From NCBI GenBank assembly GCA_017440545.1, contig JAFSGZ010000016.1, forward strand, positions 1 through 33,413: DNA of 33,413 nt. The letters are read 5' to 3'. The position numbers and the translations under genes are program-made. Of the stretch, positions 2,728 through 21,244 are shown in pieces. The notes below the pieces were generated by a model, which did no database searches, was not told where the DNA came from, and saw nothing but the letters and a program-made list of their open reading frames with translations. Every line of letters starts with the position of its first letter. The stretch's first letter is position 1. Source of the DNA: Oscillospiraceae bacterium. GTDB taxonomy: Bacteria; Bacillota; Clostridia; Oscillospirales; Ruminococcaceae.

Positions 2728-5016
2728 TTAAAGCATATTACGCTTAATTTTTCCGCTTGTGGTTTTAGGAAGGCTTTCCTTAAACACAACAACTCTTGGA
2801 TATTTATAAGGAGCTGTGTGCTCTTTTACATAGTTTTGAATTTCCTTTACAAGCTCGGGTGAGGGGACAGCGTCCTTTGTTAAGACAATGCTTGCCTTTA
2901 CAATTTGACCTCTGACCTCATCAGGAACGGCAGAAACGCCGCACTCGAGCACATAAGGAAGCTCCATAATAACGCTTTCAATTTCAAAGGGTCCTATACG
3001 ATAGCCCGAGGACTTAATTACATCGTCAACTCTGCCGACATACCAATAATAGCCGTCCTCATCGCACCAAGCCATATCTCCGGTGTGGTAATAACCGTCG
3101 TGCATAACCTCTTTTGTTTTTTCCTCGTCGCCATAGTAGCCTGTAAACAAGCCGCACGGTGCGCCGTCTTTAATATTAATAACAATTTCGCCATGCTCAC
3201 CGGTGGGAACGCTTTTGCCTTCGCTGTCCATAAGCTCAACCTTATAGATAGGTGCAGGCTTACCCATTGAGCCAACCTTATGGGCTGCGCCGCGCATATT
3301 ACCTATAATCATAGTGCTTTCGGTTTGGCCAAAGCCTTCCATAATTTGAAGACCGGTTGCTTTTTCAAACTGCTTATAAACCTCAGGATTTAGCGCCTCT
3401 CCTGCTGTTGTCATATGTTTAACCGAGGATAAATCGTATTTTGAAATATCCTGCTTAATCATCATTCTAAGCATTGTGGGGGGAGCGCAGAAGGTTGTTA
3501 TATTATACTTTTTAAACATGGGCAGAATGTCTGCAGCGTCAAACCTATCAAAGTCATAAACAAAGGTTGCAGCTTCGCTGAGCCATTGACCGTAGAATTT
3601 GCCCCACATAGATTTTGCCCAGCCTGTGTCAGAAATTGTGAAGTGAAGTCCGTCGGGGCGTACATTATGCCAATATTTTGCTGTGTGGAAGTGTCCGAGC
3701 GCATACTTATAATTATGTGCAGCAAGCTTGGGATATCCCGAAGTGCCCGAGGTAAAGAACATAAGCATTGTATCATCGCCGCCGGGGGCATCATCGGGTC
3801 TGTCGTAATGTCTGCTGAACAGAGGATATTCCTCATCAAAATTTCGCCAGCCATCGCGTGTTCCGTTTACAATAAGCTTATTTTTCATTCCGTCATAGCT
3901 ATTAAGAGCTATATCAACCTCTTTGGCTGTTTCGCCGTCGGCTGTGCATATTATTGTACTTACTCCTGCAGTTTTAAAGCGATACTCAAAATCGTGTGCT
4001 AAAAGCTGATTTGTTGCAGGGATACCAATAGCGCCAAGCTTATTTAAGCCGAGCATTGCTATCCAGAACTGATAGTGACGCTTTAATACAAGCATAACCT
4101 TATCGCCCTTTTTAATTCCGAGCGATTTAAAATAGTTAGCGCACTGCGAGGAAGTGTGTCTTAAATCTGTAAAAGTAAAACGGCGTTCCTCTTTTTCTTT
4201 TGAAATGTAAAGCATAGCAAGCTTATCTGGCTCGCGGTGCGACAGTTCATCAACTAAATCAAAAGCAAAGTTGAAGTTCTCTGTGTTTTTAAACTCTATC
4301 TTAACAGGGGTGCCGTTTTCGTTTTTCTCAACGGTAACATATTTTCTGTAAATACGCTCGTGAGTATCGTCGGGGATAATGTTTTTATCGGCAATTTCAG
4401 GTGCCTTTGTAAGCTCGGGAATAGGCTCGCCTGTAGGATTTAATACGATTGCATAGAACACGCAATCCTTGCCGCCGACAGCTATCATACCGTGAGGCGC
4501 CGAGCTGTCGAAATATATACTGTCTCCAGGGCCTAAAATTTCCTTATGCTCGCCTATTTGAACAAGCAAATTACCCTCAACTACAATATCACATTCCTGA
4601 CCCGAGTGGGTTGTGAGCTCAATTTCTTTAGTTTGAGCGTTTTCATCAAAAACACTTCTTACATAAAGAGGCTCGGCAATTCTGTTTTGGAATGCGTAAG
4701 CTAAGTTATAGTACGTCATACCGTGGGCTTTACCCGTTTCCTGACCCTCACCTGTTCTTGTAACTGTATAAGAGCGAAGATTAGGGCTGTAACCCTCAAT
4801 AATATCGGTTACATTTACGCCAAATGCTCCCGCACAACGATAAATAAAGGCAAAGTTTAAATCCCTTTCACCGTTTTCGCAAAGGAGATATTCCTCTGGC
4901 GAAACGTCGGTTTTGCTTGCCATTTCGTTTATAGAAAGGCCTATAACCTCTCTAAGCTCGCGTATACGGGAAGCGATTTCCTTAATTTTGTTGTCAATCT
5001 CAACAATTTGCTTCAT
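2728..5016 (-). CDS. HTH-cupin-acyl-CoA ligase fusion 1 (valine T-box controlled; predicted isobutyrate activating)
   Basis: This 762-residue, three-part protein begins with an XRE-type helix-turn-helix (about residues 10-68, RIRELREVIGLSINEMA). A small cupin follows (about 130-195), with THSGQE and PHGM standing for the two metal/ligand motifs. The rest is a complete AMP-forming ANL ligase of the acetyl/medium-chain acyl-CoA synthetase group. Its signatures are TSGTSGYPK (about 422), GFGQTES (about 560), YHTGDMAW, GRVDDVIKSSGYR (about 665), and PKTTSGKIKR with the catalytic lysine (about 752). The ATG at 5016 is chosen because GGAGGA lies 4 bases upstream; longer in-frame extensions run into the T-box terminator. 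The reaction expected is acid + ATP + CoA to acyl-CoA + AMP + PPi. Isobutyrate as substrate is inferred from the Val T-box and the following vor genes. The architecture is unusual for a ligase. Confidence 0.93.
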   Translation of the reverse strand: MKQIVEIDNKIKEIASRIRELREVIGLSINEMASKTDVSPEEYLLCENGERDLNFAFIYRCAGAFGVNVTDIIEGYSPNLRSYTVTRTGEGQETGKAHGMTYYNLAYAFQNRIAEPLYVRSVFDENAQTKEIELTTHSGQECDIVVEGNLLVQIGEHKEILGPGDSIYFDSSAPHGMIAVGGKDCVFYAIVLNPTGEPIPELTKAPEIADKNIIPDDTHERIYRKYVTVEKNENGTPVKIEFKNTENFNFAFDLVDELSHREPDKLAMLYISKEKEERRFTFTDLRHTSSQCANYFKSLGIKKGDKVMLVLKRHYQFWIAMLGLNKLGAIGIPATNQLLAHDFEYRFKTAGVSTIICTADGETAKEVDIALNSYDGMKNKLIVNGTRDGWRNFDEEYPLFSRHYDRPDDAPGGDDTMLMFFTSGTSGYPKLAAHNYKYALGHFHTAKYWHNVRPDGLHFTISDTGWAKSMWGKFYGQWLSEAATFVYDFDRFDAADILPMFKKYNITTFCAPPTMLRMMIKQDISKYDLSSVKHMTTAGEALNPEVYKQFEKATGLQIMEGFGQTESTMIIGNMRGAAHKVGSMGKPAPIYKVELMDSEGKSVPTGEHGEIVINIKDGAPCGLFTGYYGDEEKTKEVMHDGYYHTGDMAWCDEDGYYWYVGRVDDVIKSSGYRIGPFEIESVIMELPYVLECGVSAVPDEVRGQIVKASIVLTKDAVPSPELVKEIQNYVKEHTAPYKYPRVVVFKESLPKTTSGKIKRNML

Positions 5017-5036
5017 TTTTTCCTCCGTATCGGGAC

Positions 5037-5078
5037 AAAAAAACACTCGTCCCAAAGTTTGTTACTTTGAGACGAGCG
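5037..5078 (-). terminator. T-box attenuator terminator of the valine leader
   Basis: On the minus strand a hairpin forms between CGCTCGTC and GACGAGTG, extended by CAAAGT/ACTTTG around the apex, with one internal mismatch. It is followed by seven consecutive U (5043 down to 5037). The CUCAAA of its 5' arm can instead pair with the UUUGAG just before the T-box core at 5100, which is the standard antiterminator alternative. The U-run ends about 20 bases before the ligase start codon. Confidence 0.9.
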
Positions 5079-5315
5079 TATATATACACCCGTGGTACCA
5101 CTCAAATTGCAAGCCTCAGGCTTACCACTCAGGGTCTATCAACCCTTATGCCTTTACGCAGCAATCACGGAAGGGTTCTACTAATCTGAAAAGATTTTCT
5201 TCCCTTCGGCTCAGAAGCTACAAACACAAAAACCGCTTTTAACGGACTTTCACCAAACGCCGTCTCTCTGTAACAGAAGTTATTTATGCACTCTTCGTCA
5301 ATGCCTTTAAATTTA
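5037..5315 (-). promoter_or_regulatory. T-box leader, specifier GUA (valine)
   Basis: This transcribed leader of about 280 nt holds all T-box hallmarks on the minus strand. Stem I contains the AGAGA bulge (near 5265) and a GGUGAAAG distal loop. The specifier loop has GUA at 5221-5219, followed by a purine, then CUUCUGAGCC. Next come a stem II region with UUGCUGCGUAAAGG, and the T-box core UGGUACCACG at 5100-5091. An attenuator terminator closes the leader. The specifier register is fixed by the six bases between codon and GAGC, as in the B. subtilis glyQS leader (GGC, then AUUCUU, then GAGC); here it is GUA, GCUUCU, GAGC. Uncharged tRNA-Val would stabilise the antiterminator and switch on the ligase and vor genes. 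The stretch 5017-5365 between the two ligases contains this leader and its promoter and nothing else I can identify. Confidence 0.9.
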
Positions 5316-5365: not shown

Positions 5366-7633
5366 TTATAGTTGATTTCGCTGAATTTTGCCACTTATTG
5401 TTTTAGGAAGGCTATCTCTGAAGACAACTATTCTGGGATACTTATACGGAGCTGTGTGTTCCTTAACATAGTTTTGGATTTCCTTTTTAAGCTCTTCTGT
5501 AGGCTCGGTTCCCTTTGTTAAGACAATGCTTGCCTTAACAACCTGACCTCTGACCTCATCGGGCGCAGCCGAAACTCCGCACTCGAGCACATAAGGAAGC
5601 TCCATAATAACGCTTTCAATTTCAAAGGGTCCTATACGGTAGCCCGACGACTTAATAACATCGTCAACCCTACCGACATACCAGAAAAATCCGTCCTCAT
5701 CGCGCCAAGCGGTGTCGCCTGTGTGATAATATCCATCATGCCAAACCTGCTTTGTTTTGTCCTCATCCTGATAGTATTCAAGGAAGAGACCGCAGGGCAC
5801 CTTATCCTTTGTTTTAACAACAATTTCGCCTGTTTCACCATCGGGGACGCTGTTTCCTTCGCTGTCAACAATATCAACATCGTAAAGAGGTGTGGGTTTA
5901 CCCATTGAGCCAAGTCTGTGTGTATCACCCATAAGGTTTGCAATACATAATGTGAGCTCTGTTTGACCAAAACCTTCCATTATCTGAAGACCTGTTGCCT
6001 TTTCAAATTGCTTATAAACCTCGGGGTTCAGTGCCTCTCCTGCTGTTGTCATATGTCTTACAGATGACAAATCATATTTAGAAATATCCTGCTTAATCAT
6101 CATTCTGAGCATTGTTGGGGGAGCGCAGAAGGTTGTTATATTATACTTTTTAAACATAGGCAGAATGTCTGTAGCATCAAACCTATCAAAGTCGTATGTA
6201 AACACAGCTCCCTCACAAAGCCACTGACCGTAGAGCTTACCCCAAAGAGCCTTACCCCAACCGGTGTCGGAAATTGTAAAGTGGAGTCCGTCCTCGCTTA
6301 CGCCGTGCCAATATTTTGCTGTTATATAATGGCCGAGCGGATAGGTGTAACTATGTAATGCAATTTTAGGATAACCTGTTGTTCCCGAAGTAAAGAACAT
6401 AAGCATGGGCTCATTACCGCAGGGGGATTCCTCGTTTCTGTAAAAATGTGTGCTGTAGAGCGAGTATTCGCTGTCAAAATCTCTCCAGCCCTCACGAGCC
6501 CCACCAACTATAATTTTATTTTTAAGTGCGCCGACAGTTTTTTCGGCGATATCAACCTGATTTGCTACATCTCCATCGTTTGTACAAACGATAGCTGACA
6601 CGCCGGCAGCCTTGAAGCGATATTCAAAATCGTGTGCCAATAACTGATTTGTTGCGGGGATTACAATTGCACCAATTTTGTGAAGTGCCAAAATTGAGAA
6701 CCAGAACTGATAGTGACGCTTTAGAACAAGAAGCACTCTATCACCTTTTTTAATACCAAGTGATTTAAAATAGTTTGCACACTGGTTAGATGCGCGTTTC
6801 ATATCATTAAAGGTGAAGCGGCGTTCCTCTTTTTCCCTTGAAATATGAATCATTGCAAGCTTGTTGGGATTCTTTTTAGCAATAGCGTCTACAACATCAA
6901 ATGCAAAGTTAAAGCTGTCCTCATTTTTAAAGTTAATCTCTTTTAAGAGGCCCTTTTCATCTTCCTTAGTTTCGATGAAAGCGTCGCAAACATTTTTCTT
7001 TTCGCTTACTCTACCTGCAATTAAGGTGTCACGAATTTCGGTTTCCTTTTGCTCCTCACCGGGAAGAACAACCGCCAAGAACAGACATTCTCTACCATCA
7101 ACAGCTATCATTCCGTGAGGTGTTGAGCTGTTATAGTAGATGCTGTCACCCTCGGATAAATACTCGATATTGTCACCAATCTGAATTTTAAGACGACCGC
7201 TTACGATAAAGTCAAATTCCTGTCCCGAGTGGGTGGTTAAATGAATAGGTTTATTTTGAAGCTCTTCATTGTAATCGTATTTAACATAATAAGGCTCAGA
7301 AATCTTTTTTCTGAAATTAGGTGCGAGGTTTTGAATGAAAATGCCGTCTTCCTTTGCAGTTTGAGCGCCCTCGCCCTTTCTTGTAACTGTATAAGACGAA
7401 AGCCTTGCACTTTTACCTTCCAAAAGGTCGCCCATATCAATTCCAAAAGCAAGTGAGCATTTATGTATAAATGTAAACGGAAGGTCAACCTTACCATCTT
7501 CATAGGCTTTATAGTCCTCAACCGAAGTTTCGGTTTTAAGAGCCATTTCCTCAACGGTTAGGTCAACTATTTCACGCATCTCACGAATTCGCTGGGCTAT
7601 CTCCGTAATTTTTTTTGCTACCTCTGTAACCAT
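5366..7633 (-). CDS. HTH-cupin-acyl-CoA ligase fusion 2 (isoleucine T-box controlled; predicted 2-methylbutyrate activating)
   Basis: This 755-residue paralogue of the ligase at 2728-5016 has the same three parts. An XRE-like HTH (about residues 8-65, RIREMREIVDLTVEEMA) is followed by a cupin (about 130-195, THSGQEFDF and TPHGM). Then comes a complete ANL ligase with TSGTTGYPK, GFGQTELT, YHTGDTAW, GRVDDVIKSSGYR, and PKTISGKIQR carrying the catalytic lysine. The start is supported by GGAGAGAG upstream. Long blocks of the ligase half are identical in both proteins, for example KYNITTFCAPPTMLRMM, while the HTH and cupin halves have diverged more. Differences near DTGWGKALWG (DTGWAKSMWG in the other) could affect the acyl pocket. 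It appears monocistronic before the next T-box. The substrate is inferred from the AUC specifier of its leader. Confidence 0.93.
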   Translation of the reverse strand: MVTEVAKKITEIAQRIREMREIVDLTVEEMALKTETSVEDYKAYEDGKVDLPFTFIHKCSLAFGIDMGDLLEGKSARLSSYTVTRKGEGAQTAKEDGIFIQNLAPNFRKKISEPYYVKYDYNEELQNKPIHLTTHSGQEFDFIVSGRLKIQIGDNIEYLSEGDSIYYNSSTPHGMIAVDGRECLFLAVVLPGEEQKETEIRDTLIAGRVSEKKNVCDAFIETKEDEKGLLKEINFKNEDSFNFAFDVVDAIAKKNPNKLAMIHISREKEERRFTFNDMKRASNQCANYFKSLGIKKGDRVLLVLKRHYQFWFSILALHKIGAIVIPATNQLLAHDFEYRFKAAGVSAIVCTNDGDVANQVDIAEKTVGALKNKIIVGGAREGWRDFDSEYSLYSTHFYRNEESPCGNEPMLMFFTSGTTGYPKIALHSYTYPLGHYITAKYWHGVSEDGLHFTISDTGWGKALWGKLYGQWLCEGAVFTYDFDRFDATDILPMFKKYNITTFCAPPTMLRMMIKQDISKYDLSSVRHMTTAGEALNPEVYKQFEKATGLQIMEGFGQTELTLCIANLMGDTHRLGSMGKPTPLYDVDIVDSEGNSVPDGETGEIVVKTKDKVPCGLFLEYYQDEDKTKQVWHDGYYHTGDTAWRDEDGFFWYVGRVDDVIKSSGYRIGPFEIESVIMELPYVLECGVSAAPDEVRGQVVKASIVLTKGTEPTEELKKEIQNYVKEHTAPYKYPRIVVFRDSLPKTISGKIQRNQL

Positions 7634-13241: not shown

Positions 13242-13270
13242 ATTATACAGCATTTTGGTTTTTATGTCAA
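13242..13270 (-). promoter_or_regulatory. Consensus sigma-A promoter of the arginine operon
   Basis: TTGACA (13270-13265) and TATAAT (13247-13242) are exactly 17 bases apart on the minus strand, a perfect consensus. The predicted start near 13235 gives a leader of about 50 bases before argC. Confidence 0.9.
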
Positions 13271-13376: not shown

Positions 13377-13409
13377 AATAAGACGCATCGCTATGCGATG
13401 CGTCTTATT
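13377..13409 (-). terminator. Terminator of the giant secreted protein gene
   Basis: A perfect 15-bp inverted repeat (AATAAGACGCATCGC at 13377-13391, mirrored at 13395-13409) with a 3-base loop begins 11 bases after the stop codon. On the minus strand the stem is followed by TTTTATG after the terminal TTATT, a usable U-tract. The near symmetry may also let it act on the other strand, but no gene ends there. Confidence 0.85.
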
Positions 13410-13419
13410 AATTTAGATT

Positions 13420-16400
13420 TTAGTGATTAGGTGTTGTACCTGTGTTGGTGTGCCATACAGCATCTATCATTTCATAGTTGCCCTGATAGAATGCAATGTC
13501 ATCAACATTGATTGTTGTTCCGCCGATTGATACATAGTCTTCGGTGTTGAAATAGAAAGTGAAGTAATCAATTTCATCGGGAGTTCCAAGTACACCATCT
13601 ATGTAATCTGAATAATCTTCGTCGAATCTGAAGTTTTCAAACGGAATGATAACTGTTCCATCAAAGCCCTTCTCGAATTCGAGATAACCGTATACTAAGT
13701 ATACCTTATCGTCTTCTACTACATAGTAGGTCTGGCTGTAGTCATACATAAAGTACTCAGCCTCTTCATGCTCAACAACCTCTAAGTCGAGTCCTACTGT
13801 CATAGGAGCGTTATCGGGAACTGATACCTTGAATGAGATACCTGTTGAAGACATTAATTGCTCGTACTCTTCGTCAGAAATATCTTCCCAACGTGTTGCA
13901 TTTGTATGGTTAATGAATGATACCTTTGTTTGACCCTCACCAATTGTGATGTTAACGCTTGCATCTGTCTTATCCTTGTTTTCGATAACCTTGAGCTCAA
14001 CGCCGTCAACAGCGTAGATACCCTTGTCGTCATCGATGTTTGTGCAGTCGTTAGCCATCAAACGAGGATAGTCAGGATTAAGGTCGATACGATAGTTGGG
14101 TTTAATCTCTTCAATCTCGTAGAAGCCTGATACGCCTTGAGCTTTCATCATATAGTCAATATATGTTGAGTAGCCTTGGTACATCATAAAGTCGTCAACG
14201 ATGAATTTAGCGTTTGCACCCTTACCATCAAATGTAATACCAAAGTGCTTAATTGTATCAACGTTATATAGGATACCGTCAACAATCTTAGATACAGCTG
14301 TGTCAAACTCAAAGCTGTTAAACGGAATCATTACTGTTCCCTTGAAGCCGGGTTCAAACTTGAGAGCACCATAAATCTTTTTAGCTTCGCCGTTAGAAAC
14401 GGTGTAGTAGAACTTATCTGAATTATATCTATAGTACTCAACAACCTGCTCACAAATTTCAACTGAGAATTCAACATTGTCGCTTGCTTGAGGAATTTCA
14501 AGCCAGAATGCAACGCCTGTTGAGTCGAGAACCTGCCACTCATGGTCCTGAGTGATAACATCAAGGTTCATAGCGTCGTTTGTAAAGATGATTTCGCCTT
14601 CTTTTGCAGGAGCTGAGAATGAAATTGCTTCACTCTTAGCTTCGTAAGGCTTATTGGTTGTTTCTACAATTGTAGGTCTGATATTAGTAAGCTTTTCAAG
14701 TCCGTTGTAGATATCAATTCCGGTACAGTCATTAGACATTACACCGGGGATATCAGCAACAGTTACCTTGTTATGAGGCTCAGGAACAACCGGTTTCTCG
14801 GTGTTAGGAGCCTTGTCTTTAACAAACTTGTTAATATCATGTACAAGAACTACGTCACCTACATAGATGTTTGTGTTCTTCCACGAAGAGTTGTTCCAAT
14901 AAGTTTGGTTGATACCTCTTGTAAAGATTGAAACTGAATTCCAGCCATCTTGGAAATGGTCTCTGTTAGCTGCGCCGTTTGAGCCGTATGAGAATACAGA
15001 AAGTATGAGCCAGCCATCAAAGCCATTTATAAAGTCGGGCGATTCAAGAGCAGCAACTTCTTCCCAAGTGCCTGCGTTTTTATCAACGAGATAATAAGTA
15101 GCGCCTGTAGGATAACGAATATCTTTCTGAGTTGAACCAGAATAGCATGATGCATAAAGCTGTGTAGCTCTTTGTGTGTAATCATTTGTGCCAGGTTCAA
15201 TCTTAAGTCTGATTGCAAAACCAAAGGTGTTTAAAATATCAATATCCTCAGGGAATCCAAGCATTTTACCGCCATAAGTGTATTTACCATTAAATGAGAA
15301 TATACCACCATTATCGTTGTAGCCTGTGTACTTAATCATTCTTTCGCCATCAACTTCAACGATATTAGCATAACCGCCTGATGAGCTATCCTTACCTTCA
15401 ACTGCAGATAAGTTAGTATGTACATAAGTGTGTCTGTACTCATCTGTATCGGTAGGAACCATCATAAAGTTACTTGTATATCCATCTGCATTTAAGTAGC
15501 TATTTACAGGAGCGGGTGTTTTGGTTGTTAGAATACCTGAATAAGTACCTGTTGTGTCACCCTTAACCTGAGCAAAGATCTTATACTCGGTGCTGGGTTT
15601 AAGGTCTGTAAATAAACCTGTTTCATTTGAAATGTTTGTTCCATCGAGGTAGTAAACTAAGCCGGGAACTACATTTACCTGAATAGATTTTGCAGTAGCA
15701 CTCTTGAGTGTGGGTGTTGTAAGTTCAGGGTTAGCCATATCTGTGCTGATTGTGAAGGGCTCAGAAATTGCTGTACCTGCTGTGTACTTAGCTAAAAATG
15801 TATACTCTGTATTTTCTGTAAGTCCGTTGAATGTCGGTGTGAGAGTCCATGTTGAACCGTTATCTATTGAATACTCAACTCCCTCAACAGCCTTAAGTGT
15901 GATAGAGGTTGTATCCTTAGATTCGAGTTCAGGCATATCAGCTGCTGCGTGTACGCCTAAGAATTTGTTAACATCTGTAACAAACATGCTGCTACCGATA
16001 TAGAGCTTCTGGTCAGCCCATTTACCAACGGTTGCATGTATACATTTACCTAAGTGGAGATTTACTGTTAAGCCGTTAAAGCTTGAGTTAATCCATGAAG
16101 GAGTAGCCTTTTCATAGCCATCAAGAGGAAGAACAAGCCAACCATCAAAGTCGGTGTTAAATACCATTGTTCCGCCGTTGATAGCAGGAGCAACTTCGCC
16201 TGTTGCAGCATCAATAGTAAAGGGTTTAGCTACTGCTGAAGATGTATTGCTGTCAAGCCAGAGGCTGAAGAATGCGGGGTCTTTTGTCATACCCTGTGTC
16301 TTAATTCTTATAGCCATAGCCTGAAGGTCTTTAGCATCAAAAATTGAAGGAAGACCGACAGCACCATAGAGGTAAGATGAATCGAAACGGATTGTAGCTT

Positions 16401-19400
16401 CGTCGTGAGCAGCAGCAAGAGCGGCTGTAGTTCCGATTTCAACAAACTTCTCACCGTTTTGAGTTACAACATTTAAGTAACCGCCGCCAACACCGGGATT
16501 ACCTTCTGCATCTAAACCGATGGCTGCTGAAGGAGTACCGTAGTTTGTGTTGTCAATCTTGGTCATACCGTCCTCAATCTTGAAGAAGTAAATACCTGAG
16601 TCTTTATTATCTGTAGCGTAAGGGTTAGGATATGCAAGAGTTGAAGTAATTGTGAATTCAGGACCAATCTCCGTTGTGCCCTTAATTCTTACATATACTC
16701 TATACTCTTTATCAGCCTCAAGGCCTGTGATGATACCTTCTTCTGTCCAATTAACCTGGTCAACACTGTGCTCAAGGCTAGGAACTGCCTGAACTGTAAT
16801 GGTTGTTTGGGTTGTGCCTAAAATAACAGGCTTAACAAGTGAAGGTGTGCTTGTATCTGTAAACCAAGTAAACGAAATTACGGGGATACCGCCTATAAAT
16901 CTTGCGAATACAGTGTAAGGGGTATTTTCTGTAAGTCCTGTAAACTCACCGGTGGTGTTCCAAGTAATCTGGTCGAGTGAATACTCAACACCACCTACAG
17001 GTCTAACATAGATTGAGTTTTTATCCTTTGATAAAAGTTCAGGTCTCTCAGGAGCACTGTTCTTCTTAGCAAAAGCATTAACATCTGTAACAAATAAGCT
17101 GTCGCCTACATAAAGCTTTTTGCCATTCCAATCACTCCATGCAGCATCGTGGAGTACACAATCTGCACCGTGCATATCGATGGTAAAGCCTGTATATTCT
17201 AACTTAAGCTTATTTGTAGCTCTTGTAGGATAGTTTTCAATGGGGATAAGAAGCCAACCATTGAGCTCGCCTACGAGCTTAAGTGCGCTATCATACTCAA
17301 TTTCTCTCTTTTCGCCTGTTACAGCGTCAATATAAAGAATTTGACTTAAATTATCTACAGAGGTTCTGTCGTTAAAGAACTTAAAGTCAACTGCAGAAGG
17401 TGTATTAGAAGCGCCGCCCTCAACAATTATTCTGAAAGCAACACCCTTGATGTTCTCAGCACCGATAGAATCGGGGATACCGATACCACCATAAAGCTTT
17501 TCAGCAGCATCAATAGTAACAGAGCCTTCTTTATTATCGGTTAAAGAAAGTTCGAGGAAGTTTTTAGAATTCTTAACAACAGTGTTAACTGTCATATTGC
17601 TGGGAGTATTATCGCTCTCGCCTACCTTAAACATAAAGTTACCGGTATCGCCGCTACCCGAAGAATACTCGTTGTCAGCTGTGTAGATGATTGTTGCAGC
17701 AGAATTTGTGGTTGTGCCAACAATTCTTGCAACAATTTCATAACCTGTTCCTGATAAGAGGCCTTTGAATACGCCCTTTTCTGTCCAGGTTGCGCCACCA
17801 TCGATTGAATACTCGTGGTCGGGCTCTACAACAACCTTAATGCTGTTAAATGTAATGCTGTCCATTACGGGAGCTTTAAGGTTTGTTTCTTCATATCTTG
17901 TGCTGTAGTTAAAGTTGATAACTGCGGTTTTACCAACATATCTTGCCTGGAAGTTGTACTGTGTTCCGGGGGTAAGATTTGTAAAGTTACCATTTGTTAC
18001 CCATGTAGCACCGTTGTCATTTGAATATTCAACATTAGCTTGTGAAGCAAGCTTAATGGATGTTTTGGTTATCTCAGCAGTGGGAATAGCAGGAGTTGAA
18101 CGTGCTGTGAGGAAGGTTTCCTCGCCCTGCATAAAGAGGACATTACCTAAATAGAAGGTTCTGTCATTCCATCTGCTTAAATGAGAGTTATCTGCGCATC
18201 CCTTACCGTGTAAAACAACATTGATATTGCCGTATGATGTTTTAAGTTCGGAAGCTGTGATAGCTGCAGTACCATTTGTAATATTAGTGAAGGGAACAAT
18301 GAGCCAACCATCGATAGCGTCAGCTACTTTAAAGCCGTATTCATTTTTAAGTGTTGTAACTTCGCCTGTTGCAGCATCAATGAATTTGTATTCTCCGTCA
18401 ACAGTTGTTTTATCTCCGAATTGGAAATCAAAAGCAGAATACTTACCTACAATGCCAGCTGAAGTTTTAACTCTGAATACAAAAGCGGTGAATGCGCTGG
18501 GAGGAAGTTCTTCGGGAATACCAGCGTCAATACCATAGGTTATCTTTGCACCGTTAACAGCAGGTACAGCCTCATTTTCATCGCTTACATTAATCTCGAT
18601 GAATTTTTCGGTTCCAAAGTTCTTAACGTGTAAGAAAGAACCTGCATCTGTATCATCTTCATTTCTGCCTACGTTTGAAGGAGCAGTTACAAAGCTGCTG
18701 TTATACTTTGTTGTAAGGTCGTCTATCTGGAGTGCATAGTAAGCCTTATCGCCAATACCTGTTGCATAAGGATAGTCTGCACTCTTTGTTACTGTAGATT
18801 TAATCTTTTCAGGGTCGGTGTTACCAACTGCCTGTGTATAGATGGTATATTCGGTTCCAGCGTCAACTAAGAATTGACCGGTGGTTGACCAAGTTGTTTT
18901 ATTGAGCGAATACTCTTGACCATCTACTACTTCAACTGTAATAAGGTTTGTTGTTGCAGATATTACCTTAGGTGCAACAAGACCCTTAGTTGCAATTTCA
19001 GCAGTTGAAACAAATTGACCGCCATCATATTTTGCTTTGAAGGTGTAATATGTACCTTCATTAAGTCCTGTAAAGGTTGCATTTGAAGAGAACTCACCAT
19101 CGCCGATTGCATATAAAACGCCGGGTACAGCATTGAGTGTAATTGAATTTTCAGTTACAGCACTTGCTGTGGGAGCCTCAGGAGCTGCGTGAACCTTTTT
19201 AAAGTTGTCTAAATTGGTGATAAAGAAAGCGTCACCAAAAAGAAGTGCTTTGCTTCCACCCCAAGGTTCAGAAGTACCAGGATTTGTACCATCTAATTTT
19301 ATATTCTGATATCCATTAGAGCTTGTTCCTTTAAGGTCATTTAATGCAACACCGAAATCGTCAATATCAACTACGATATAACCGTCTGTTGCACCAGTTA

Positions 19401-19971
19401 ACTCAAAGCCATTATTAGTAACATAATTAATATTAGAAGTTACACCTGTTGCCTTATCAATAAAGGTGTATGCTCCAGCAGGAAGTTCCTTACTGTTATT
19501 AATTCTGAGTCTAACATACTTTTTCTCTGATGCAGCAACGCCGCTAACCTTAACCCTAAATGCCATATTTGTAATGGTGCCGCTATTAGTGATATCAGCA
19601 GGGATACCTTTAGCAGTATTGTAGGTCATGTAGGTCGTAACAATCGCCGCATTACCTGATGTAGCGTTTTTAAAGGATAATTTTAGGAACTTCTCGGTTC
19701 CTACTGTTGTGATATGAAAGTACCTATTATTACCTGATGTTACATAATCAGTATCATCTGCATTTCTGAAGATGTTACCATTTACCCATTTTGTTGTTGA
19801 AGTGGGTTGGTTATACTGAATATAAGCCTGATTAGGCACTTTCATTGCGTAGCTTGCTGAATCATTCATACCAGAGTCATAGGCATTTTCAGCTAATGAG
19901 AAAACACTGAGCTGGGTTATTGCCATTGCTACTGTAAGAATGACCGCTACAATCTTTTTAGAAAGTTTCAT
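13420..19971 (-). CDS. Giant secreted modular protein with Fn3-like and beta-sandwich-like repeats, function unknown
   Basis: This 2183-residue protein starts with a clear Sec signal peptide (MKLSKKIVAVILTVAMA, cleavage probably after SLA near residue 28). Four tandem cassettes follow, each of about 350 residues. Each cassette is one module of about 200-240 residues ending in a LYVGDSLFVTDVN-like strand, plus two Fn3-like repeats of about 70 residues with the pattern EYS.D...W...G.F.GL...T.Y. The long modules start near residues 30, 399, 769 and 1119. A fifth long module (about 1490-1720) is followed by two of another type (about 1744-1957 and 1970-2183), starting with NDCT.ID and containing GTVMIPF. 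The GWLI.PF and GF.GTV.IPF segments recall CBM11/galactose-binding-like sandwiches. No catalytic domain, LPXTG, SLH or dockerin is visible. The start at 19971 follows AAGGAAAAGGG and gives the signal peptide at the terminus. Surface or polysaccharide binding is inference. Confidence 0.88.
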   Translation of the reverse strand: MKLSKKIVAVILTVAMAITQLSVFSLAENAYDSGMNDSASYAMKVPNQAYIQYNQPTSTTKWVNGNIFRNADDTDYVTSGNNRYFHITTVGTEKFLKLSFKNATSGNAAIVTTYMTYNTAKGIPADITNSGTITNMAFRVKVSGVAASEKKYVRLRINNSKELPAGAYTFIDKATGVTSNINYVTNNGFELTGATDGYIVVDIDDFGVALNDLKGTSSNGYQNIKLDGTNPGTSEPWGGSKALLFGDAFFITNLDNFKKVHAAPEAPTASAVTENSITLNAVPGVLYAIGDGEFSSNATFTGLNEGTYYTFKAKYDGGQFVSTAEIATKGLVAPKVISATTNLITVEVVDGQEYSLNKTTWSTTGQFLVDAGTEYTIYTQAVGNTDPEKIKSTVTKSADYPYATGIGDKAYYALQIDDLTTKYNSSFVTAPSNVGRNEDDTDAGSFLHVKNFGTEKFIEINVSDENEAVPAVNGAKITYGIDAGIPEELPPSAFTAFVFRVKTSAGIVGKYSAFDFQFGDKTTVDGEYKFIDAATGEVTTLKNEYGFKVADAIDGWLIVPFTNITNGTAAITASELKTSYGNINVVLHGKGCADNSHLSRWNDRTFYLGNVLFMQGEETFLTARSTPAIPTAEITKTSIKLASQANVEYSNDNGATWVTNGNFTNLTPGTQYNFQARYVGKTAVINFNYSTRYEETNLKAPVMDSITFNSIKVVVEPDHEYSIDGGATWTEKGVFKGLLSGTGYEIVARIVGTTTNSAATIIYTADNEYSSGSGDTGNFMFKVGESDNTPSNMTVNTVVKNSKNFLELSLTDNKEGSVTIDAAEKLYGGIGIPDSIGAENIKGVAFRIIVEGGASNTPSAVDFKFFNDRTSVDNLSQILYIDAVTGEKREIEYDSALKLVGELNGWLLIPIENYPTRATNKLKLEYTGFTIDMHGADCVLHDAAWSDWNGKKLYVGDSLFVTDVNAFAKKNSAPERPELLSKDKNSIYVRPVGGVEYSLDQITWNTTGEFTGLTENTPYTVFARFIGGIPVISFTWFTDTSTPSLVKPVILGTTQTTITVQAVPSLEHSVDQVNWTEEGIITGLEADKEYRVYVRIKGTTEIGPEFTITSTLAYPNPYATDNKDSGIYFFKIEDGMTKIDNTNYGTPSAAIGLDAEGNPGVGGGYLNVVTQNGEKFVEIGTTAALAAAHDEATIRFDSSYLYGAVGLPSIFDAKDLQAMAIRIKTQGMTKDPAFFSLWLDSNTSSAVAKPFTIDAATGEVAPAINGGTMVFNTDFDGWLVLPLDGYEKATPSWINSSFNGLTVNLHLGKCIHATVGKWADQKLYIGSSMFVTDVNKFLGVHAAADMPELESKDTTSITLKAVEGVEYSIDNGSTWTLTPTFNGLTENTEYTFLAKYTAGTAISEPFTISTDMANPELTTPTLKSATAKSIQVNVVPGLVYYLDGTNISNETGLFTDLKPSTEYKIFAQVKGDTTGTYSGILTTKTPAPVNSYLNADGYTSNFMMVPTDTDEYRHTYVHTNLSAVEGKDSSSGGYANIVEVDGERMIKYTGYNDNGGIFSFNGKYTYGGKMLGFPEDIDILNTFGFAIRLKIEPGTNDYTQRATQLYASCYSGSTQKDIRYPTGATYYLVDKNAGTWEEVAALESPDFINGFDGWLILSVFSYGSNGAANRDHFQDGWNSVSIFTRGINQTYWNNSSWKNTNIYVGDVVLVHDINKFVKDKAPNTEKPVVPEPHNKVTVADIPGVMSNDCTGIDIYNGLEKLTNIRPTIVETTNKPYEAKSEAISFSAPAKEGEIIFTNDAMNLDVITQDHEWQVLDSTGVAFWLEIPQASDNVEFSVEICEQVVEYYRYNSDKFYYTVSNGEAKKIYGALKFEPGFKGTVMIPFNSFEFDTAVSKIVDGILYNVDTIKHFGITFDGKGANAKFIVDDFMMYQGYSTYIDYMMKAQGVSGFYEIEEIKPNYRIDLNPDYPRLMANDCTNIDDDKGIYAVDGVELKVIENKDKTDASVNITIGEGQTKVSFINHTNATRWEDISDEEYEQLMSSTGISFKVSVPDNAPMTVGLDLEVVEHEEAEYFMYDYSQTYYVVEDDKVYLVYGYLEFEKGFDGTVIIPFENFRFDEDYSDYIDGVLGTPDEIDYFTFYFNTEDYVSIGGTTINVDDIAFYQGNYEMIDAVWHTNTGTTPNH

Positions 19972-20069
19972 TTTTCCCTTTTCCTTTCTTATTTGGTATA
20001 TATAATCGATTTCTGTTTTTGCACAGATTATGGACTGCAAATTATTTAACAGTATCGATATCCATCGTT

Positions 20070-20245: not shown

Positions 20246-21244
20246 TTACAGTTTTCTCTCACTCATAAGCCCGTCTTGAAGCTTACCTAAAAACTCAAAT
20301 GCCCTGCCTGCGCCCATAACAACGCATTTATCCGGATGCTCCGGGAATATGGTTTTTATTCCTGTGCGCTTTTCAATAAGCTCGCTAAGTCCACACACAA
20401 GTGCACCGCCGCCCGTTAAATAAATTCCGTTTTCAGATATATCAGAAACAAGCTCGGGAGGGGTTTTGTCTATTACGCCGACAAGAGCATCAACAATTGT
20501 GTTAAAGTTTTCGTCAAAATATCCTTTAACTTCAATGGGGTCAACCTCTATCATTTCAGGAAGACCTGTGAGGGCATTTTTGCCCTTTACGCTTATCTTT
20601 TCATTTTGTGCTATGGCATCGGGAAGTGAAATTTTAATCTTTTCTGCCATACGGCTTCCGATAATAAGGGCATATTTAGCTCTGATGGCTTTGATAATTG
20701 TATCATCAAAGGTGTTACCTGCAATTTTAAGTGAAACCGACTTGGAAATTCCCCCAAGGGTTATAACGGCAATATCTGCAGTGCCACCGCCGATATCAAG
20801 AACTAAATTTCCGTCAGGCTTTAAAACATCTATACCCGCGCCGATAGCCGCTGCCATAGGCTCTTCTATAGTGATAACGTTTTTAGCACCTGCGGCATCG
20901 GCAGCTTCGACAACCGCCTGACGCTCAACCTCAGTGATTTCTGTTGGAATACAGATTGCAACCCTTGGTCTTAAAATGCGGTTACTGCACGCCTTTTCAA
21001 CAAAATACTTAATCATTTTCTGACAGCTTTTAATTTCGGCAATAACTCCGTTTTCAAGCGGCTTTATTGCAACTATATGGGAAGGAGTTCTTCCAATCAT
21101 TGTTTGTGCTTCGTTTCCTACAGCCACAATACTGCCGTCTCTTTTATTTATAGCTATAACCGAAGGCTCGCTTAACACTATTTTACCGCCCGTAAAGACC
21201 TGAACGGTTGCTGTTCCTAAATCAATTCCGATATCGAGTGCCAT
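20246..21244 (-). CDS. mreB: MreB/Mbl-family actin-like cell-shape protein
   Basis: This 332-residue bacterial actin has the phosphate-1 motif GIDLGTATVQV (residues 6-16), EEPMAAAIGAG (about 131-141), the phosphate-2 loop LVLDIGGGTADIAVI (about 150-164), and the adenosine motif YLTGGGALVCGL (about 276-287). It polymerises under the membrane and guides elongation-type peptidoglycan synthesis. AAAGGAGAA precedes the ATG. It follows comF by 19 bases and is the last gene of a long housekeeping operon; mreC and mreD are not next to it. That isolation suggests an Mbl- or MreBH-like paralogue rather than the mreBCD copy, which the sequence alone cannot settle. Confidence 0.92.
   Translation of the reverse strand: MALDIGIDLGTATVQVFTGGKIVLSEPSVIAINKRDGSIVAVGNEAQTMIGRTPSHIVAIKPLENGVIAEIKSCQKMIKYFVEKACSNRILRPRVAICIPTEITEVERQAVVEAADAAGAKNVITIEEPMAAAIGAGIDVLKPDGNLVLDIGGGTADIAVITLGGISKSVSLKIAGNTFDDTIIKAIRAKYALIIGSRMAEKIKISLPDAIAQNEKISVKGKNALTGLPEMIEVDPIEVKGYFDENFNTIVDALVGVIDKTPPELVSDISENGIYLTGGGALVCGLSELIEKRTGIKTIFPEHPDKCVVMGAGRAFEFLGKLQDGLMSERKL

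Follow-up and report, generated by a model that had tools for sequence, protein, structure and literature searches.

A secreted giant with predicted beta-sandwich modules, one type of them genus-restricted, in Oscillospiraceae, with anchored orthologues and a possible role in glycan capture

Carbohydrate-binding modules (CBMs) that are private to one lineage and deployed in many copies have been described for Ruminococcus albus. According to PMC4081043, CBM37 is species-private, reaches 51-102 copies per strain, occurs in enzymes and in non-catalytic proteins, stands in tandem and is rarely accompanied by dockerins. The same paper describes CBM37 as able to attach enzymes to carbohydrate of the bacterial wall. 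Here, a 2183-residue secreted modular protein (the giant) is set against CBM37 and other described systems. It is encoded on the 33,413-nucleotide contig JAFSGZ010000016.1 of an Oscillospiraceae bacterium (assembly GCA_017440545.1), the whole of which is called the window; the host genome spans 1.2 Mb and is 84% complete. The principal module of the giant, M, shares with CBM37 the pattern of deployment, being lineage-private, present in many copies, tandem and rarely joined to dockerins; the comparison covers this pattern of use.

The giant is read on the minus strand from ATG 19971 to a stop ending at 13420, and the plus strand over the same interval is full of stops and not open. An in-frame TTG at 20040 is a possible alternative start; AAGAAAGGAAAAGGG lies directly before ATG 19971. 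Behind a hydrophobic, signal-peptide-like N-terminus (KD 2.18), the order is (M-F-F)x4, M, N, N. Profiles delimit seven long modules of two types, five M (~205-235 aa) and two N (~205 aa), while each of the four M-M linkers (137-143 aa) reads by eye as two Fn3-like repeats (F), giving eight in total. Like the Fn3 (PF00041) spacers of bacterial extracellular enzymes, the F repeats reach Pfam fn3, although just over the cut-off (26.5 bits against 25, in one stretch, the other repeats being weaker); they are shorter (about 65-72 aa) and always paired between M modules. They also reach Pur_ac_phosph_N (31.1, cut-off 30), and BNR and reelin subrepeat B (E 7.8e-4) match the giant below their cut-offs. 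Pfam, NCBIfam and inspection of the C-terminus revealed no catalytic domain, dockerin, LPXTG motif or transmembrane helix in the window copy. It thus differs from sortase-anchored surface proteins in having no LPXTG-like motif, transmembrane helix or basic tail, and from cellulosomal proteins in having no dockerin by Pfam. This agrees with the first-pass annotation of the window, made from the letters and the translated open reading frames (ORFs), which had described the signal peptide, the seven long modules of two types with eight Fn3-like repeats in M-F-F order, and a chain with no visible catalytic domain, wall anchor or dockerin, although without giving a strand.

Table 1. Features of the giant and its surroundings, with orthologous loci and domain T rows (window coordinates unless a contig or locus is named; aa, residues of the giant)
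Feature	Position	Strand	Basis or remark
Secreted modular protein, 2183 aa (M-F-F x4, M, N, N)	13420..19971	-	ORF
Signal peptide, aa 1-28 by eye	19888..19971	-	Hydrophobic N-terminus
M1, aa 29-262	19186..19887	-	Hidden Markov model built from alignment A1; nearest to orthologue M1
F1-F2, two Fn3-like repeats	18775..19185	-	Pfam and by-eye linker reading
M2, aa 400-628	18088..18774	-	AlphaFold2 model
F3-F4, two Fn3-like repeats	17674..18087	-	Best Pfam stretch 630-687
M3, aa 767-973	17053..17673	-	Profile
F5-F6, two Fn3-like repeats	16630..17052	-	Linker reading
M4, aa 1115-1345	15937..16629	-	Profile; without counterpart by position in any of the three orthologues
F7-F8, two Fn3-like repeats	15508..15936	-	Linker reading
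M5, aa 1489-1723	14803..15507	-	Profile; counterpart of orthologue M4
N1, aa 1738-1942	14146..14760	-	Profile
N2, aa 1965-2172	13456..14079	-	CBM11-like model
C-terminal end, last 11 residues and stop	13420..13455	-	Orthologues run on here into membrane helix and basic tail
Intrinsic terminator	13377..13409	.	15-pair stem, readable in both directions
MreB-like gene	20246..21244	-	Directly upstream of the giant; ~78% identity to the two orthologous loci compared
Orthologue, Oscillospiraceae SIG578	SVOZ01000002.1
Orthologue, RGIG4275, roe deer colon	JAFTYW010000033.1
Orthologue, RGIG4718, roe deer rectum	JAFUPX010000014.1
Domain T rows of alignment A6	L015:10606-11655, L016:12743-13786, L046:1855-2892, L047, L050

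The M and N modules are novel by sequence, and their predicted fold is a known one. Structure prediction of single modules, as the first-pass annotation had proposed, gave a beta-sandwich both for M2, modelled with 17 aligned M modules (predicted local distance difference test, pLDDT, 90.3; predicted template modelling score, pTM, 0.90), and for N2, modelled with 8 N modules (pLDDT 83.0, pTM 0.84; AlphaFold2). The closest solved relative of the N model is CtCBM11 of Clostridium thermocellum Lic26A-Cel5E (6r31, 6r3m, 1v0a). In a Foldseek search of the PDB, 6r3m ranked first (E 1.6e-6, prob 1.00, TM score 0.54/0.62), and VIA aligned 152-155 residues of CBM11 at Z 13.2 and a root-mean-square deviation of 3.3-4.0, with 17-18% identity; the N-terminal domains of exo-agarases (12.8) and CIA30 (12.7) fell within 1 Z. 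For the M model, Foldseek listed FlaA1 and xylanase 10B at the top, at E 8.5e-5 and worse. VIA placed CBM11 (Z 10.1-10.4, 12% identity at 10.4) in a tie with CIA30 (10.6), exo-agarase (10.3) and CBM30 (9.6-10.0), followed by CBM27 (9.4), CBM29 (9.0), CBM28 (8.9) and CBM4. The models support a CBM-type sandwich for both modules, but not membership of CBM11, from which M and N differ in being roughly 30-60 residues longer, in being repeated in one non-catalytic chain and in lacking a Pfam CBM_11 match (the family is presumably PF03425). The first-pass suggestion that the segments GWLI.PF and GF.GTV.IPF belong to carbohydrate-binding-like sandwiches holds at the level of fold, the models lying nearest to CBM11/30/27/29-type structures.

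Profile comparison links M to N (prob 94, E 1.5e-7 over 130 columns; prob 81 with a wider M set), while control comparisons with an unrelated domain, T, gave prob 0.1. By this comparison the two are distant relatives, and with the predicted structures they make up diverged branches of a single CBM11-like beta-sandwich fold. N is also related by profile (prob 91) to modules of a transmembrane-anchored surface protein in another genus. The profile search for each module, likewise proposed at first pass, assigned neither M nor N to a curated family: scanned singly, 8 N and 44 M modules matched no Pfam family consistently, two M members touching CBM96 at a best E of 0.017. The window protein had no match in NCBIfam or PADLOC.

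The M family is expanded in one genus. Searched with a first M profile, 297 family genomes yielded three with matches, namely the three of the giant's own genus (12, 13 and 27 matches). A wider profile from 44 rows (alignment A5, which excludes matches with an independent E-value no better than 1e-14 and those spanning less than about 140 positions of the model) matched 1 of 398 phylum genomes, the host genome itself. As M was found nowhere else in the 297 family genomes, the family is called genus-restricted. The N profile matched five of the 297, the three genus genomes strongly and two others at E 1.3e-5 and 3e-4, and six after three modules of genome G107 had been added. G107 belongs to another genus, and its L061 protein (open frame of 1315 aa) resembles the giant in having several N-like modules (5 in the frame, 6 in the genome) and the orthologues of the giant in ending with a transmembrane helix and a basic tail. 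It differs in overall architecture, and no M modules were found in that genome. A search of genome contigs with the whole giant returned nothing, and neither did a search of viral contigs.

Within the genus, M modules occur in 22 of the ORFs retrieved, orthologues and fragments counted. Their partners are Dockerin_1 and Big_3 (L046), LamG and a metallophosphatase (L048), a GDSL lipase and CE2_N (L049), and LRR_5 (L052, an M-LRR_5 stretch of 4077 aa). The L052 protein (G186 C19) lies in a 4609-aa open frame with LRR_5 repeats and SdrD/CarboxypepD_reg-like domains. Eight M ORFs share the domain T, about 350 aa long, in which a WDEP motif is invariant among the 7 aligned rows (alignment A6, 7 of 8 selected rows, the partial L047 11711-12418 being left out). 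Of 197 family genomes, three contained T, each of them from the genus (7, 10 and 11 matches); some matches sit in short frames of their own, in places as runs of neighbouring short ORFs (e.g., G186 C15 29281-35462, G105 C5 133588-142044). Seven T domains gave only scattered, single-member weak matches in Pfam and nothing up to E 1 among PDB sequences; judged by eye from its sequence, T appears TIM-barrel-like. In the giant, M does not belong to a carbohydrate-active enzyme. In other proteins M occurs with the CE2_N/GDSL esterase pair and with the unassigned T, and an M-T protein of 1157 aa in the host genome lies downstream of a GH2-like beta-galactosidase gene, with a GH20-like gene a few genes on (ORFs identified by eye).

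The M proteins vary in their putative attachment devices. Eighteen of the 22 listed have an intact C-terminus: five carry PxTG plus a transmembrane helix, five a transmembrane helix alone, one a dockerin, and seven no recognised device. In this tally the cut ORFs L016, L047 11582, L052 and L054 1-1287 are left out, L044/L045 are counted once with L067/L066, which are the same genes, and L053 and L055 are included although they have no N-terminus. One genome of the genus, G186, holds both a dockerin-bearing M-T protein (L046:1786-4872) and a cohesin match (C37:13563-13916); no cohesin match was found in the other two genus genomes, the 84%-complete host genome of the giant included.

How the giant stays on the cell had been raised at first pass, and its relatives answer part of the question. 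A C-terminal profile search led to three orthologous loci, each encoding 4 M and 2 N modules; aligned whole, the window protein is 39% identical to two of them. At the C-terminus of each orthologue stands a membrane helix (VSGLALLxA...) followed by a basic RKK tail, without PxTG. The window copy has neither an LPXTG-like motif nor a transmembrane helix or basic tail, and stops about ten residues past the last stretch shared with the orthologues. The best reading of these sequences is that the membrane anchor is ancestral and was lost in the window copy. The M copies of the giant are strongly diverged (18-28% identity to each other), and window M1, M2, M3 and M5 match orthologue M1, M2, M3 and M4 (28-38% for matching pairs). 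Since window M4 is only 20-28% identical to every other M module compared and has no counterpart, one M-F-F cassette was gained here or lost there.

In all four loci, the window's and the three orthologous ones, the gene immediately upstream of the giant is MreB-like. On the other side in the orthologous loci comes an ispE-like gene, and murT/gatD-like and HAD-like genes are found upstream (named by eye), whereas in the window an arg operon follows and comF/recD-like genes lie further upstream. Both flanks therefore differ, and the MreB-like/giant pair alone is kept across this break in synteny. The MreB-like gene is common, with matches at E 1e-60 in 96 of 119 family genomes, usually two in each. 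Outside the genus, 25 of 28 MreB loci gave downstream ORFs, and none of these showed a sign of the giant, judged on the two longest downstream ORFs of each (L078 and L080 had no MreB ORF call and L099 no downstream ORF); the neighbours were varied, with an occasional signal-peptide-like start (e.g., L079, L095).

Two other explanations of the missing anchor were rejected. One was a tail hidden by a frameshift: the three frames past the stop hold no remnant of the orthologue tail, and the terminator follows at once. Nor does the anchor appear to have moved with ispE: the host genome's ispE is on contig C84 among other neighbours, and its 6970-base contig shows by eye no remnant of a giant or an anchor.

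Taken together, we lean towards the giant being a multivalent glycan-binding cell-surface protein, a reading drawn from the predicted folds, from the domains that accompany M and from the C-terminal membrane helices of the orthologues, two of which come from records titled roe deer colon and rectum; the solved neighbours of both modules are most often glycan-binding. The giant would project from the envelope like a flexible rod, and its M and N modules, which have diverged position by position, would hold polysaccharide near the cell, be it plant fibre or a mucosal or microbial glycan of the ruminant gut. The polysaccharide so held might then be acted on by other M-bearing proteins, those that carry putative hydrolase or esterase domains. 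Because most M modules keep their positional identity across species, each is read as having its own task rather than as an interchangeable repeat. In the window species the giant may be released, or else one of its modules may hold it on the cell by binding glycan of the wall.

Several results weigh against this interpretation. Pfam gave no CBM-family sequence match above cut-off for the giant, N or M modules, and CBM_11 was absent among matches to E 10 (whole protein and 8 N modules) and to E 1 (44 M modules). Sequence searches of the PDB gave no believable match: the whole protein drew chance matches of the titin type, none better than E 0.017; M drew designed Pizza proteins and WelO5, none better than E 0.014; and N drew nothing up to E 1, with a single chance match at E 0.53 in another search. 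The Foldseek TM scores of the M model are low, mostly 0.3-0.4. CIA30/NDUFAF1, which does not bind sugar, is level with CBM11 for M and N alike, and reelin repeats and a tailed-virus turret are also among the fold neighbours. Further, the MreB-like neighbour points to an envelope role as much as to a feeding role.

In a different view, the giant is a structural envelope or surface-layer protein whose sandwiches stack against one another or against wall polymer and serve cell-surface architecture rather than nutrient capture. The many large beta modules in one chain and the upstream MreB-like gene kept in all four loci, three of them also near murT/gatD-like genes, would suit such a role. However, M recurs in many proteins that have enzyme-like domains and various anchors, which ill suits a single lattice protein, and the MreB-like gene is common in the family where M is not; we consider this view unlikely. 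Slightly less probable still is a protein-binding adhesin, in which the sandwiches would bind host or other bacterial proteins in the manner of Fn3-spaced adhesins and reelin-type repeats. The non-sugar binders in the fold list (reelin, CIA30), the reelin subrepeat B match under cut-off and the strong divergence among M copies speak for an adhesin, but glycan binders predominate among the solved neighbours, and carbohydrate-esterase, LamG and dockerin domains are among the partners of M. The most doubtful of the alternatives has M or N serve as a wall-binding anchor in its own right, keeping the anchorless copy on the cell. The wall attachment described for CBM37 in PMC4081043 offers a precedent, and 7 of the 18 M proteins whose C-terminus is intact have no recognised anchor; the other 11 carry some attachment device, which would be needless if M bound the wall.

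M adds a genus-restricted module family without sequence assignment, together with its natural contexts, to the CBM-like sandwiches, and setting the anchored orthologues beside the anchorless window copy opens cell attachment to a testable comparison. Should M bind glycan and T prove to be a hydrolase, the two would make up a new lineage-specific strategy for fibre or mucin in the ruminant gut. More tentatively, M and T may form a genus-private glycan kit, expanded side by side in secreted proteins, in which the M-F-F giant is the non-catalytic capture rod, in parallel to the invention of CBM37. Loss of the anchor and gain of a cassette in the window copy might then mark a natural change from a capture protein bound to the cell to one that is released or retained by the wall.

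As for transcription, the first-pass annotation had credited the giant with its own promoter and terminator, of which the terminator is confirmed. The 15-pair stem directly follows the stop, and terminator-like sites number 2 against 0.1 expected. An own promoter is not established, because the best upstream match is 9/12 (20098-20070) and the upstream region has five promoter-like sites where 2.1 +/- 1.4 are expected, weak matches in no clear excess. Elsewhere in the window, the argC-like gene is preceded by a perfect 12/12 sigma-70 promoter match (TTGACA-17-TATAAT) at 13242-13270 on the minus strand. Two tandem paralogues on the minus strand (2728-5055 and 5366-7633) each combine by eye a helix-turn-helix, a cupin and an AMP-binding acyl-CoA synthetase in one chain. 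Between these synthetase-like genes, a T-box leader (RF00230) at 5065-5310 on the same strand scores 93.5 bits against a gathering threshold of 93 and would lead the gene at 2728-5055.

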